Assembly (NCBI GenBank): GCA_017354415.1
Contig: JAFMQY010000011.1
Coordinates: 1 to 40,561 of the forward strand
Direction: 5' to 3'
Length of the DNA: 40,561 nucleotides
Source: Nocardioides sp.
GTDB taxonomy: Bacteria; Actinomycetota; Actinomycetes; Propionibacteriales; Nocardioidaceae
Part shown: in pieces, positions 1,286 through 8,337 of the stretch
Position numbering within the stretch: position 1 is the stretch's first letter
How the letters are laid out: every line of letters begins with the position of its first letter
Program-made: the position numbers and the translations under genes
Notes under the pieces: generated by a model
Told to the model about the DNA's origin: nothing
Database searches by the model: none
Seen by the model: the letters and a program-made list of their open reading frames with translations, nothing else

Positions 1286-2161
1286 TCAGACGACCATGAC
1301 TCCGCCCTGCGCGGTGAGCACCCCGGTCATCAGGAGGACCACCACGACGATGGCGAGCACGACCCGGTAGACCACGAAGACGAGATAGGAGTGCGTGGAG
1401 ATGAACTTGAGCAAGCCCATGATGACGACGTACCCGACGACGAACGCGATCGCCGTGGCCAACAGGGTCTCGAACCCGCTGGGTGCCCCGGGCGGAGGAT
1501 TGTCCCCCAGCGACCGAAAGAGCTGGAAGAACCCGGAGCCCATGACGGCCGGGATGGCCAGCAGGAACGCGTATTCCGCAGCCGCCTTTCGGGTGAAGCC
1601 CATGAGGAGGCCGGCGGTGATGGTGCCCCCGGAGCGGGACACGCCCGGGATCAGTGCCATCGACTGCGCGAGGCCGAAGGTCAGGGCCCGCCGCGGTGTG
1701 AGCGCGTCGAGGGTGCGCTGATGCGCGCCGGTCTTGTCGGCCCAGCCCAGCAGCAGGCCGAAGACGGCGAGCATGGTCGCGGTGATCCACAGGTTACGCA
1801 GCGAGCTCTCGATCCAGTCCCGCAGCAGCAGGCCTAGGACCACGATCGGGATCGAGCCCAGCGCGATGTACCAGGCCATGCGTGCGTTCTCGCGGTGGGC
1901 GCCGAACCGGGCCGCGAGGCCGCTGCCGTCGTCGCCGCGCAGGGCCTTCCACCAGTCGACCACGATGTCCCGGATGGTGCGCCGGAAGTACAGGACGACG
2001 GCGGCCTCGGTGCCGATCTGCGTGATCGCCGTGAAGGCGGCACCTGGGTCCGAGGAGCCGATGAGTTCACCGACGATGCGCAAGTGAGCGCTCGACGAGA
2101 TTGGGAGGAACTCGGTGAGGGCCTGTACCACGCCGAGCACCATCGCTTCCCATGCTCTCAC
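1286..2161 (-). CDS. uppP: Undecaprenyl-diphosphatase (UppP/BacA family)
   Basis: VQALTEFLPISSSAHL and IPGVSRSGGTITAGLLMGF motifs; multiple TM segments; GTG start. Confidence 0.95.
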   Translation of the reverse strand: MRAWEAMVLGVVQALTEFLPISSSAHLRIVGELIGSSDPGAAFTAITQIGTEAAVVLYFRRTIRDIVVDWWKALRGDDGSGLAARFGAHRENARMAWYIALGSIPIVVLGLLLRDWIESSLRNLWITATMLAVFGLLLGWADKTGAHQRTLDALTPRRALTFGLAQSMALIPGVSRSGGTITAGLLMGFTRKAAAEYAFLLAIPAVMGSGFFQLFRSLGDNPPPGAPSGFETLLATAIAFVVGYVVIMGLLKFISTHSYLVFVVYRVVLAIVVVVLLMTGVLTAQGGVMVV

Positions 2162-2682
2162 GCGGTCCGACCTTATCTCCTGCGCCTCGAGAACGGATCA
2201 AGAACCGCGTCCGCGAGGGCCCGTTGAGCAAGTGTTGGGCCCACCGCCAAGATCGCAGGGAAGGTCGCTACGAGCACCGAGGCGGTCAAGATGCACGCCG
2301 AGGAGGGCTCGGGCCGGCGGTCGTGCGAATTCCCAGTCTGGTCGACGGCCTCATTGACCTCGGTCACCGGTGGCCTGCGGTGCCATTGTCGTCGTCTCCA
2401 CCTCGTCGCAGAGCGAACGTCATGAGCCTCAGCTGGCGCGTTGCGTGTCCATTACGTCGACCTGGTCGCGGGCGACGACAGATGGCCGGGAACCAGGAAG
2501 CTCAGGCCGACCGGCCTGATCCCGGCGATGGCGTTCGCCGCGTCCGCGGGGATGCGGAGCGCAGGCCGATGCTTGCCGATGCCCAACTGCTTCGCTTCGT
2601 GACGTCTTGCGACAAACCGGCGGCTTGCGGCTCGGTGAGCACATGTAACGTGAGTCACGGCGAGGGCCCGGTAGGGGGTTCT

Positions 2683-3618
2683 ATGAGCAAGGCTGCGCGC
2701 TACGTCAAGGACGTCGTCTTCGCGCCCGGGCTCAAGGACTGGGTATTGCGCATCGCCAAGGGGGCAGTCATCGCGCTTGGATTCATCCTGCCTGGTGTAT
2801 CGGGTGGTGTCCTCGCCGCGATCCTCGGCCTGTATGAGCCGATGCTGCGGTTCCTCGCTCATTTGCGCCGCGACTTCGTGAAGAACGCGGTGTTCTTCCT
2901 GCCCGTCGGCGTGGGCGGGATCCTCGGCCTCGTGCTACTGAGCCGGCCGCTCGACTACGCACTCGAGCATTGGCCGGTTGTCGTGCTGTGGGGCTTCGCC
3001 GGCGCGATCCTCGGCTCGGTGCCCGCCCTGTTGCGCGAATCGACGTCGCAGACCAGACGTGATCGCATCGACCGGCTGTGGCTCACTGGCACGTTCACGG
3101 TCGGACTGGTAGTGCTCTACCTCCTGCCCACGTTCGCTGGTACGGTCCCCGGCACCTTTCCTGGCTTCGTGCTGGCGGGCTCGCTGATTGCGCTCGGCGT
3201 CCTGGTGCCAGGGCTGAGCCCGTCGAACCTGCTGATCATCCTCGGCCTGCTGCAGCCGATGCTGTCTGGGTTCAGCGACTTCGACGTTCCTGGGGTGTTC
3301 CTGCCGATCGCTCTGGGTGGCATCGCCACGCTCCTCATCTTCGCCAAGTTCATGGAACGCATGATCGACCACCACCACTCGCGCACGTACCACTTCGTCA
3401 TCGGCCTGGTGCTCGCCTCAACCGTGCTCATCGTGGTACCCACGCGAAGCAGCGAAACCATTGACTACACGGACGCGACGGCCTCGACGGCGGTCCTGGC
3501 TGCTCTGCTTTTCGCGGCCGGCCTCGCCCTTGGCTTGTGGATGGGGAGTCTCGAGGAGAGGTACAAGACCGGCGCGGTCATCGACCGGACCGCCCACGAG
3601 ATCGCGACCGGTCACTGA
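2683..3618 (+). CDS. DUF368 family membrane protein (PopT-type undecaprenyl-phosphate translocase candidate)
   Basis: MSKAARYVKDVVFAPGLKDWVLRIAKGAVIALGFILPGVSGGVLAAILGLYE... with a second LGVLVPGLSPSNLLIILGLLQPML repeat, as in DUF368. ATG at 2683 preferred over the long upstream extension of the ORF call. Confidence 0.88.
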   Translation: MSKAARYVKDVVFAPGLKDWVLRIAKGAVIALGFILPGVSGGVLAAILGLYEPMLRFLAHLRRDFVKNAVFFLPVGVGGILGLVLLSRPLDYALEHWPVVVLWGFAGAILGSVPALLRESTSQTRRDRIDRLWLTGTFTVGLVVLYLLPTFAGTVPGTFPGFVLAGSLIALGVLVPGLSPSNLLIILGLLQPMLSGFSDFDVPGVFLPIALGGIATLLIFAKFMERMIDHHHSRTYHFVIGLVLASTVLIVVPTRSSETIDYTDATASTAVLAALLFAAGLALGLWMGSLEERYKTGAVIDRTAHEIATGH

Positions 3619-3654: not shown

Positions 3655-4480
3655 GTGGTGTTCTTTGGGGCCAGTGCGAGTACGCCGTCGCGGACCCCCT
3701 CCATGTTCTCGACGTCCTTGTCCTCGGCGTTAAGCCGCACGTGTGGCTCTGTGCTGGAGGGTGTGCCGGCCATCCCGTTGCCCGCGTCGGCTACCATCTT
3801 CAACCTTCGGCCGGCCACCGGCGCGACGGCGAGCAGGTGGGCGGGCGTAGGCCTCCAGCACATCGGTCTCCTCGATCTTCCCCGTCGCCGTCACCAGCGC
3901 GAACTCCACTTCGCGGATCTGGGCCAGGCCGCTGTCCTCGCCGATCGGGTCGCCTCGGCCCGGCACAACTTGATGCCGTAGTAGCCGGCCGGGTTGTGGC
4001 TGGCGGTGAATATCGCCCCGGCATCCTGAGATTGTCGGAGGCGAAGGAGAGCCGGTCGGTCGACGCCAGGCCGATCATCACCACATCCAGGCACCCGTCG
4101 GTGACACCCCGCGCGAACGCACCAGCCAGCTCCAGTGAGCTCGGCCGCATGTCCTGGCCGACCATTACCCGCGGGCCGTCGACTGCCTTGGCGAAGTCCG
4201 CACCGTCGAGTCGTGCGGCGACGGCGCGGTCGATCTCCGAGGCGCAATCGCTGCCGTCGGCGTCGAACCTGACGACGATATCGCCCGTCACCTGCTCGAA
4301 GCCGACCGCCATCGCGTTGCCCTTGCCCTTGCCCTTGCGGGTCTGCTGGAAGACCCGGATGTCGGGCAGGATTCGGCGAGCCGTCTCGACGTGTCCTCTG
4401 AACTGTGAGGAACGCTGGACACCCGTGGTGTCCACGATGGTGTTCGCGCTGCGGGTTCGGGTCGCGACCGGGTGGTCGAG
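3655..4480 (-). pseudogene. Chimeric relic: GT2 (polyprenyl-phosphate mannosyltransferase-like) fragment fused in frame to a phosphomannomutase (ManB) fragment; frameshifted, with a large internal deletion
   Basis: Minus-frame ARRILPDIRVFQQTRKGKGKGNAMAVGFEQVTGDIVVRFDADGSD...DGADFAKA (GT2) continues directly into VDGPRVMVGQDMRPSSLELAGAFARGVTDGCLDVVMIGLASTDRLSFASDNLRMPG (ManB). It then changes frame to AIFTASHNPAGYYGIKLCRAEA and again to RLKMVADAGNGMAG, which joins TEPHVRLNAEDKDVENMEGVRDGVLAL (ManB C-terminus), skipping the middle of the enzyme. Confidence 0.85.
4317..4340. repeat. 6-bp tandem repeat (TTGCCC)x3 + TTGCGG inside the GT2 relic
   Basis: ttgcccttgcccttgcccttgcgg; encodes an extra KG unit (RKGKGKGNA) on the minus strand. 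Confidence 0.9.
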
Positions 4481-4523
4481 CCCTGGGCTGCGTCTATCCC
4501 GGTGGCCGAGCCAAATCGGCGCG

Positions 4524-4928
4524 TCAGCCGACCCGACCTCGGTCCTCGCGCAGATGCCGGCCCTCGAGGGACGCCAGCTGCGCCACGTGGCCACCGTCCA
4601 TGGTGAATCGCTCGATCGCGTGCCGGGCTGCGAGCGCCGACAGTTGCGAGGCGTGCCGCACCTCCAGCCACGTGTGCTCCGCGGCGTGCCGGGTACCCAA
4701 CCTCGCTTTCTGGCCAGGCGACGCCGTCATCGCCTTCTCGTGCTCGGCGGCGTGCCTGTCAGCCAGCGCCGCATGCTCGGCCTCGTGCCGGTTGTAGAGC
4801 TGTTCATGCTGGGCAAGGTGTTCCCGAGAAACCCGCACATGGTCATCAACATGCCGATGCTCGAGGTCCGCGTGCTCAGTCACGTGACGCTGCCCGACCG
4901 AGCCGGGGAAGGTGTTCTGCTGACTCAT
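4524..4928 (-). CDS. Small His-rich protein made of eleven contiguous 11-residue (hendecad) repeats; unknown function
   Basis: ATG at 4928 preceded by GGAAGGGGTCAGG. The 134 aa equal 13 aa (MSQQNTFPGSVGQ) plus 11 x 11 aa: RHVTEHADLEH RHVDDHVRVSR EHLAQHEQLYN RHEAEHAALAD RHAAEHEKAMT ASPGQKARLGT RHAAEHTWLEV RHASQLSALAA RHAIERFTMDG GHVAQLASLEG RHLREDRGRVG. Confidence 0.75.
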   Translation of the reverse strand: MSQQNTFPGSVGQRHVTEHADLEHRHVDDHVRVSREHLAQHEQLYNRHEAEHAALADRHAAEHEKAMTASPGQKARLGTRHAAEHTWLEVRHASQLSALAARHAIERFTMDGGHVAQLASLEGRHLREDRGRVG

Positions 4929-5029
4929 CCTGACCCCTTCCGTGGGTGCGAGCGCTTTCACGCTACTCCCGATGGAGCGACCGCGAAACCCACGGTCACT
5001 CGCCTGGGTCAACGACAGCGGCCGCACGG

Positions 5030-5440
5030 GAGTCGCTGTTTCCCGCTCTCGAACGGGTACATCGGTCTTCTCGGTACGCACGAGGAAGGCGAACCGGGAT
5101 ACCGACCCGCGACGCTCCTACAACGGATTCCACGAGACATGGCCGATCGTCTATTTGGAAGGGCGCCTACGGCCTGGCGACCACTGGACAGACCGTGGTT
5201 ACGGTCCCGGACGGAACCAGCCTCCGGCTCCTCGTCGACGATGAGGCGGTGAGCATGACCAGCGCTGAGGTCTGCGTGTACGTGCGGATGTTGAACATGG
5301 CAGACGGAACGTTGAGCCGTAGGGCCGCTCTTCAGTTGTCGGAGGCTGCGAATCAGGATCGACTCGCCCCGCTTCGTTTCGTTTATGCATCGGCACCTGG
5401 CATGCATCCGCTACGACCCGACCATCCTGCACGTGACAAA
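5030..5440 (+). pseudogene. Relic of GH65-family glycoside phosphorylase/hydrolase (kojibiose/trehalose/maltose phosphorylase-like) N-terminal domain, multiply frameshifted
   Basis: Collinear family-like segments in successive frames: FPLSNGYIGLLGTHEEGEPGYRPATLLQ / NGFHETWPIVYLEG / AYGLATTGQTVVTVPDGTSLRLLVDDEAVSMTSAEV...LNMADGTLSR / IRIDSPRFVSFMHRHLACIRYDPTILHV. Confidence 0.85.
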
Positions 5441-5648
5441 GGGCCAGACCGAGGGGGCCTCGCCGCATGACGGCCCGGGTGCGGCGCAGTTCCACTTCAA
5501 CGCCGACATCGCCTACGGTCCTGGGCCGACTCCGACCGAAGCCGTCGGCATCAACGGCTCCAGCACCGCCCACACCTCGTCACTGCTCTCGGAACAAGCC
5601 ATCCAACGATCTGACACCACCGACCACTCAGATCACTTGCAACACGGC

Positions 5649-6146
5649 CTAGGGGGCGGACGGGTTCTCCTTGAACCGTGCGAAGCAGGCTTCGACCTCG
5701 CTCTCGGCCTCGGTCCGGCCCACCCAGTAGGTGGCCCCGACCGACATGCCGGGCTCGATCGACTTGTACTCCTCGAGGAAGTGCTGGATCTGCAGTCGGT
5801 CGAACTTCGAGACGTGGTGAATGTCGCGCAGGTGCTCCAGGCGCGGGTCGTGAGTGGGCACGCATAACACCTTGGGATCGCTGCCGACCTCGTCGGTCAT
5901 CTGGAACATCCCGATCGCGCGGCAGGCGATGAGGCAGCCAGGGAACGTCGGCTCCCGCAGGAGCACCATGGCGTCGAGTGGGCCACCGTCCTGGCCGCGC
6001 GTGTTCTCGATGTACCCATAGTCGGCGGGGTACGCCGTTGACGTATACAGCAATCGGTCGAGGCGGATCCGGCCGGTCTGTTGGTCGACCTCGTACTTGT
6101 TGCGCCCTCCCTTTGGGACCTCGACCAGCACGTCGAACTCAAGCAC
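5649..6146 (-). CDS. ppa: Inorganic pyrophosphatase
   Basis: MLEFDVLVEVPKGGRNKYEVDQQTGRIRLDRLLYTSTAYPADYGYIENTRGQDGGPLDAMVLL; family I PPase signature. Confidence 0.97.
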   Translation of the reverse strand: MLEFDVLVEVPKGGRNKYEVDQQTGRIRLDRLLYTSTAYPADYGYIENTRGQDGGPLDAMVLLREPTFPGCLIACRAIGMFQMTDEVGSDPKVLCVPTHDPRLEHLRDIHHVSKFDRLQIQHFLEEYKSIEPGMSVGATYWVGRTEAESEVEACFARFKENPSAP

Positions 6147-7875: not shown

Positions 7876-8337
7876 ATGCTCATCACGAATCACGTCGTCG
7901 GCGGCGCCATCATCGGATCGCTGTCGTCGTCGAAGCGCACAGCGTTCGCTGTCGGCATCGTCTCGCACTTCGCTCTGGACGCAATCCCGCACATGGGTGT
8001 CCGCGACCGGACGCATTTTCTGACCCTGGCTGTCATCGACGGTCTGATCGGCGCTGCCGCCATGGCCGCGATCGCGAAGATAGCGCCGACGGACAAGCGT
8101 GGTCGTGTGGTCGCCGGCATGCTCGGAGCGTGCCTTCCTGATGCGGACAAGCCGAGCCGGGAGTTCTTCGGTGGCTCGCCGTACCCGAAGTGGCTAGACC
8201 GGGCACACGACGCGATCCAGACCGAGAGCCCGGACAAGCTCGGCCAGGAGGTGCTCCTGGCAGTGTTGGGCGGGGTGGTCCTGGTCGGCACGTTCCTTCG
8301 TCGCGACCATAGCCGCCGAGGCGAAGGTCGTCGATGA
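7876..8337 (+). CDS. Hypothetical membrane protein; 3' end reads into the antisense of the integrase relic
   Basis: MLITNHVVGGAIIGSLSSSKRTAFAVGIVSHFALDAIPHMGVRDRTHFLTLAVIDGLIGAAAMAAIAKIAP...; HFALDxxPH motif, hydrophobic segments, GGA upstream of ATG. Confidence 0.6.
   Translation: MLITNHVVGGAIIGSLSSSKRTAFAVGIVSHFALDAIPHMGVRDRTHFLTLAVIDGLIGAAAMAAIAKIAPTDKRGRVVAGMLGACLPDADKPSREFFGGSPYPKWLDRAHDAIQTESPDKLGQEVLLAVLGGVVLVGTFLRRDHSRRGEGRR

Follow-up and report, generated by a model that had tools for sequence, protein, structure and literature searches.

A rare actinobacterial protein of eleven 11-residue repeats is under purifying selection and carries an unusual His-Leu hendecad core pattern

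What does a small, histidine-rich reading frame made almost entirely of 11-residue units encode, and is it a gene at all? We addressed this question in Nocardioides sp. GCA_017354415.1 (contig JAFMQY010000011.1), using a window that covers positions 1-40,561, the whole stretch of DNA analysed. An earlier, sequence-only reading had placed an ORF at 4524-4928. Its location and length are right; the strand, absent from that reading, is minus. We found that this ORF is a genuine gene under selection, and that its orphan hendecad protein has an unusual pattern of His and Leu in the core. The gene and its parts are as follows.

4524..4928, minus: coding sequence of the His-rich hendecad-repeat protein (ATG at 4928, stop codon at 4524-4526, 134 aa)
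4890..4928, minus: leader, residues 1-13 (MSQQNTFPGSVGQ), defined by sequence
4725..4889, minus: repeats 1-5, residues 14-68, predicted helix 1 (model residues 10-66)
4692..4724, minus: repeat 6, residues 69-79, ASPGQKARLGT, degenerate; hinge region, where the models break the helix
4527..4691, minus: repeats 7-11, residues 80-134, most of predicted helix 2 (model residues 71-133)
4929..4942, minus: Shine-Dalgarno region, GGAAGGGGTCAGG ahead of the ATG (CGAAGGAGGTCAGG in the homologue)
4959..4968, minus: GAGTAGCGTG, common to the upstream regions of the gene and its homologue; putative promoter element

After the 13-residue leader come eleven 11-mers, back to back (residues 14-134), with no insertions or deletions. 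Repeats 1-5 read RHVTEHADLEH, RHVDDHVRVSR, EHLAQHEQLYN, RHEAEHAALAD and RHAAEHEKAMT, and repeats 7-11 read RHAAEHTWLEV, RHASQLSALAA, RHAIERFTMDG, GHVAQLASLEG and RHLREDRGRVG. Repeat 6 (AATGRKVRMGT in the homologue) is the only one that lacks the consensus. His occupies position 2 in 10/11 repeats and position 6 in 6/11, position 5 is Glu, Asp or Gln in all 11, and position 9 is Leu, Val or Met in nine; the parse and the position counts reported from the sequence were all reproduced. The 11-residue periodicity was confirmed to lie far beyond chance. Residue identity is 0.236 at lag 11, 0.295 at lag 22 and 0.257 at lag 33, against about 0.03-0.15 at other lags, and the lag-11 value was attained by none of 20,000 shuffles and, at any lag from 3 to 33, by none of 2,000. 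The His and hydrophobic moments both peak at 98 degrees per residue, matching the requirement of a hendecad, and the His vector at this angle is 0.84 of its maximum. Autocorrelation and moments thus agree with the hendecad periodicity that the earlier reading had proposed, giving the 11-residue period with an a/d-e/h core stripe that characterizes hendecad coiled coils. Half of this stripe is His, which is unusual. The protein is hydrophilic overall (GRAVY -0.92) and has no Cys.

The surroundings of the gene in the window include the following features.

3690..4594, minus: downstream flank; pseudogene in which a partial GT2 is joined in frame to a partial phosphomannomutase, the latter continuing in another frame
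5649..6146, minus: Ppa (inorganic pyrophosphatase), the next intact gene upstream
1286..2161, minus: UppP (undecaprenyl-diphosphate phosphatase)
2152..3618, plus: PopT-like polyprenyl-phosphate transporter, divergent from UppP, scoring under NCBI's cut-off

Both flanks had been described as decayed genes. This holds downstream, where the frame-shifted chimera lies; upstream, at 4929-5640, we found no recognisable gene. UppP and the PopT-like transporter form a lipid-carrier recycling pair. Farther along the window, a short ORF at 7876-8337 (plus) matches YdjM over only a small part of the profile and is possibly truncated.

A scan of 84,980 species genomes returned a single true relative, an unannotated ORF of 135 residues (P0003) in the Actinophytocola sp. 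MAG Dino_bin55 (WHUB01000085.1, L005:2318-2725). In the study of Centrosaurus bone and mudstone from which this MAG comes, its abundance was higher in the mudstone (PMC8067395). The two proteins are 69% identical over their full length and share the 11 x 11 register, the repeat number and the hinge repeat. Copy number, which had been suggested to vary among relatives, is therefore 11 in both. P0003 differs in its pI (10.9 vs 6.8) and its net charge at pH 7 (+7 vs -1 for the Nocardioides protein), has Gln in place of His41, and carries additional His both at residue 4 and close to the C terminus. Its flanks are unrelated to those of the Nocardioides gene: it adjoins a partial mutator-type transposase and also an ABC-ATPase fragment, the latter identified by reading. 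We rejected any inference from operon or neighbours, since the flanking genes are not common to the two loci and the scattered tblastx pieces look like GC-rich noise.

Could the ORF be a chance frame in GC-rich DNA or a decaying remnant? Its rarity and the remnants that adjoin it at both loci would suit such an origin, but the full-length homologue does not. The relatives differ at 27 first, 15 second and 53 third codon positions. Three methods put dN/dS at 0.18-0.23, as a pairwise value from two sequences. In a six-frame comparison the sense frame alone is stop-free in both relatives and has the lowest dN/dS; coding in another frame is rejected by stops and higher dN/dS. The pairwise dN between the same two genomes is 0.18 for the hendecad gene, 0.29 for Ppa and 0.41 for UppP. 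By this pairwise measure the hendecad protein is more strictly kept than these two housekeeping proteins, which argues strongly against decay or chance. Together with the conserved start and ribosome-binding site, and with silent sites nearly saturated while the proteins remain 69% identical, a dN/dS as low as 0.18 makes a non-functional ORF barely credible. The comparison indicates that the ORF is a functional protein under purifying selection and not a product of decay. The earlier reading had called the protein intact and had named two outcomes that would count against it, loss of the 11-residue periodicity in homologues and a dN/dS near 1 with stops; what we found is a full-length homologue in the same register, dN/dS of about 0.2 and zero stops.

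The silent sites are near saturation to a similar degree in the hendecad gene, Ppa and UppP. This excludes recent horizontal transfer between the two hosts, and an older transfer and patchy loss would both fit the divergence, indistinguishably.

DNA similarity between the two loci covers approximately the gene and about 15 bases upstream, and the Shine-Dalgarno region of P0003 resembles that of the Nocardioides gene. An alternative GTG start at 5081 would give a longer ORF in the same frame; the ATG at 4928 is supported because the ribosome-binding site and the homologue agree on it. Farther upstream, GAGTAGCGTG begins 40 and 45 nt before the ATG in the two relatives and includes TAGCGT, a fit to the actinobacterial -10 (TAnnnT), so that this element is a possible promoter kept together with the gene. 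A scan with the sigma-70 consensus detected no promoter at the gene, and tRNA, Rfam and promoter/terminator scans found nothing there.

How widely is the protein distributed? Carriers aside, we found no true relative in 99 genomes of relatives, 220 of the genus or 395 of the class, with the same outcome in 397 genomes of the order, 397 of the phylum and 392 of the Actinophytocola family (these sets overlap). Overall, it is not present in >1,000 other actinobacterial genomes searched. Plasmids, phages and viral contigs also gave no match. Its rarity is provisional and refers to these genome, plasmid, phage and viral collections, since the broad scan relies on exact short peptides, which distant relatives would escape. 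As the earlier reading had surmised, the protein belongs to no known family among those searched, with no significant match in Pfam, NCBIfam, PHROGs, PADLOC or PDB sequences. PHROGs, PADLOC and the phage and viral contigs likewise place it in no phage or anti-phage defence group.

Several other genome matches were rejected; those in G080, G061, G175, G385 and G614 are weak. In G385 the match runs antisense to an M16 peptidase-like gene (L007, about 1501-1710) with 33-bp tandem repeats encoding the 11-residue unit AVSGRVSVAEP; it is a false match because the antisense of these repeats mimics His-rich 11-mers. The match in G614 overlies a membrane-protein gene, the one in G080 overlaps another reading frame, and those in G061 and G175 have weak scores only. 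G365 and G587 contain a true hendecad linker within a PAS/kinase protein, an analogue rather than a homologue. At L013:5164-9927 and L014:4729-9477 this long, Streptomyces-like PAS/kinase-type protein has the short linker RHASELEKLSE-EHASDLTALRQ-QHVAELEELRE, and its receiver-like end follows a long Pro/Gln/Ala stretch of low complexity.

What structure do the repeats adopt? AlphaFold2, run on the two-sequence alignment only, predicts helices at residues 10-66 and 71-133 of the Nocardioides protein with a break at 67-70 (mean pLDDT 90.5, pTM 0.74). With the homologue placed first, the helices span 10-70 and 78-134 and the break lies at 71-77 (pLDDT 85.7, pTM 0.69). The leader is a low-confidence coil to about residue 9, with pLDDT <50 at residues 1-8, and by eye it lacks a hydrophobic stretch like that of a signal peptide. 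Both models break in or at the non-consensus repeat 6, so the layout is five repeats, a hinge and five repeats. A hairpin packing of the two helices is predicted from the helix break and the pTM, bearing in mind that a periodic coil can produce a spurious hairpin in AlphaFold2. Foldseek searches of PDB and BFVD yielded nothing at E up to 0.001, which is unsurprising for a hairpin this simple. The highest TM-score among the PDB matches listed, which is not significant, belongs to 4tql (TM 0.73, E 2.1), a designed three-helix bundle. Hendecad coiled coils and designed helical bundles such as 4tql have the 11-residue period and the a/d-e/h core geometry in common with the Nocardioides protein; their sequences are unrelated to it, and only in the latter does His take a core position.

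Eleven-residue repeats and overall hydrophilicity are also features of group 3 LEA-like (LEA_4) desiccation protectants, which are disordered in water and become helical when dried, and the repeats had been compared with these proteins. The comparison gained no support: LEA_4 has no profile match at E up to 10, its motifs in PMC11575898 are unlike a repeat of Arg, His and Glu with a Leu/His stripe, and LEA_4 proteins are described as disordered (PMC11575898) whereas a confident hairpin is predicted for both proteins here. We regard a LEA-like protectant as very improbable.

With 11 residues to three turns, one face is centred on positions 2 and 9, which have 5 and 6 on their flanks, followed by 1 and 10. 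Positions 1, 2, 5, 6 and 9 are identical between the relatives at 47/54 sites, against 40/64 elsewhere (p = 0.002), and position 10 is conserved too (9/10). His is conserved at 16/17 sites (p = 0.03). The most conserved face is thus centred on His2 and Leu9 with Glu/Gln5 and His6 alongside, the pattern of a hendecad coiled-coil core. The motif H-x3-H occurs in all five repeats of helix 1 (four in the homologue) and, in helix 2, only in repeat 7, while His2 is present in all five of repeats 7-11. Shuffled sequences would be expected to contain 2.0 such pairs; the protein has six (p = 0.008) and the homologue five, where the excess alone is weak (p = 0.043); the excess is partly a by-product of the repeat. 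The position of the turn suggests a register of i + j = 136, picked by pattern, which gives the most facing pairs of His with a hydrophobic residue (nine; the next best register gives six). If this register holds, nine His2/position-9 pairs are opposed and His19, 30, 41 and 52 lie opposite Gln117, Glu106, Gln95 and Glu84; the sets H48-E51-H52 and H81-E84-H85 would also oppose each other.

What is the His for? The sequence-only reading had raised metal binding or pH sensing, and this gains some support from the near-complete conservation of His and from the place of His2 and His6 on the face that is most conserved. Structural constraint by itself would also account for the conservation of that face. 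The protein could be a purely structural coiled coil that acts as a scaffold or spacer or as a hairpin for binding a partner; its His would then simply suit the packing of the hendecad core, with no metal or proton function. Indeed, the PAS/kinase linker (L008, L009, L013 and L014) has hendecads of the same form, RHxxELxxLxx, with period 11 and His at position 2, so His at this position does occur in an ordinary hendecad linker. But Leu takes the place of the position 6 His there, the hinge is missing, and the linker is 4-5 repeats inside a frame of about 1,590 aa rather than a predicted stand-alone hairpin. The conservation of 16 His and the six H-x3-H pairs also speak against packing alone, and we judge a purely structural role possible but rather unlikely.

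Alternatively, the hairpin may respond to protons without any metal, with buried His2 neutral near pH 7 and the hairpin, or its oligomer, opening on protonation below about pH 6. His2 is central in the contact face, and the calculated charge of both proteins rises by about 18 units from pH 7 to pH 5. Such a switch is physically possible, since acidification causes the sharp disassembly of designed helical assemblies that contain 6-9 buried His (PMC11286511). However, a cytosolic protein rarely encounters such a pH, a switch would require neither the H-x3-H pairs nor the Glu/Gln5-His6 flank, and genetic context is absent. A metal-free pH switch therefore appears doubtful.

The best explanation, which we put forward tentatively, is a hendecad hairpin in the cytosol that binds a transition metal through its stripe of His and Glu. 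We propose a stand-alone small alpha-helical protein, probably cytosolic, in which repeats 1-5 and 7-11 would form two long hendecad helices in an antiparallel hairpin that turns at repeat 6 and probably self-associates into a larger bundle. His2 and Leu9, at hendecad positions a and h, would be central in the contact face, with Glu/Gln5 beside them and also His6 in helix 1. In the 136 register Leu9 would face His2 of the opposite helix, and Glu/Gln5 of helix 2 would face His6 of helix 1. Divalent Zn, Ni, Cu, Fe or Co could then be bound by the H-x3-H and H-x2-E-H sets, which are densest near repeats 4, 5 and 7; because the protein has no Cys, metal sites would have to use His, Glu/Asp and Met. 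Metal may lock or load the hairpin, which would then act as a metal buffer, a store or a metal-dependent assembly. Against this reading, our searches found no metal-binding homologue, neither locus has a metal-related or conserved neighbour gene, and the two relatives differ in net charge.

Known His-rich metal binders offer limited parallels. SmbP is small, rich in His and acidic residues, and binds Cu, Mn, Zn and Ni (PMC10893511). It is comparable only in how it may work. It is periplasmic and about 10 kDa, whereas the hendecad protein has no evident export signal and resembles no family searched. The silver-copper sponge SilE/PcoE has conserved His in repeated helical motifs, and metal binding induces its helix (PMC5008109). 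SilE/PcoE itself is disordered when metal-free, periplasmic, built of His/Met motifs and encoded in a metal-resistance operon.

Why would such a protein matter? Our search of the open-access literature yielded no description of a natural hendecad protein that has His at regular intervals along its core. It is conceivable, although on balance unlikely, that the protein represents a natural family, confined to very few actinobacteria, whose hendecad hairpin core is systematically built of His-Leu layers with folding or assembly gated by metal or protons. Such a family would be the natural counterpart of designed buried-histidine switchable bundles, and its small, repetitive, easily expressed member would serve as a natural model for them. 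As a mere scaffold, it would add a new but minor family to the coiled coils. Its strong conservation, combined with hardly any detectable relatives, also bears on the origins of orphan genes.

Finally, the Actinophytocola contig that carries the homologue also holds the N-terminal part of a formate dehydrogenase alpha subunit (L005:6742-7704). An in-frame TGA at frame residue 210 lies at the expected selenocysteine site (...EQQARV-U-HGPTVVSLAATFGRGAMTNHW...), and this enzyme is likely a selenoprotein.
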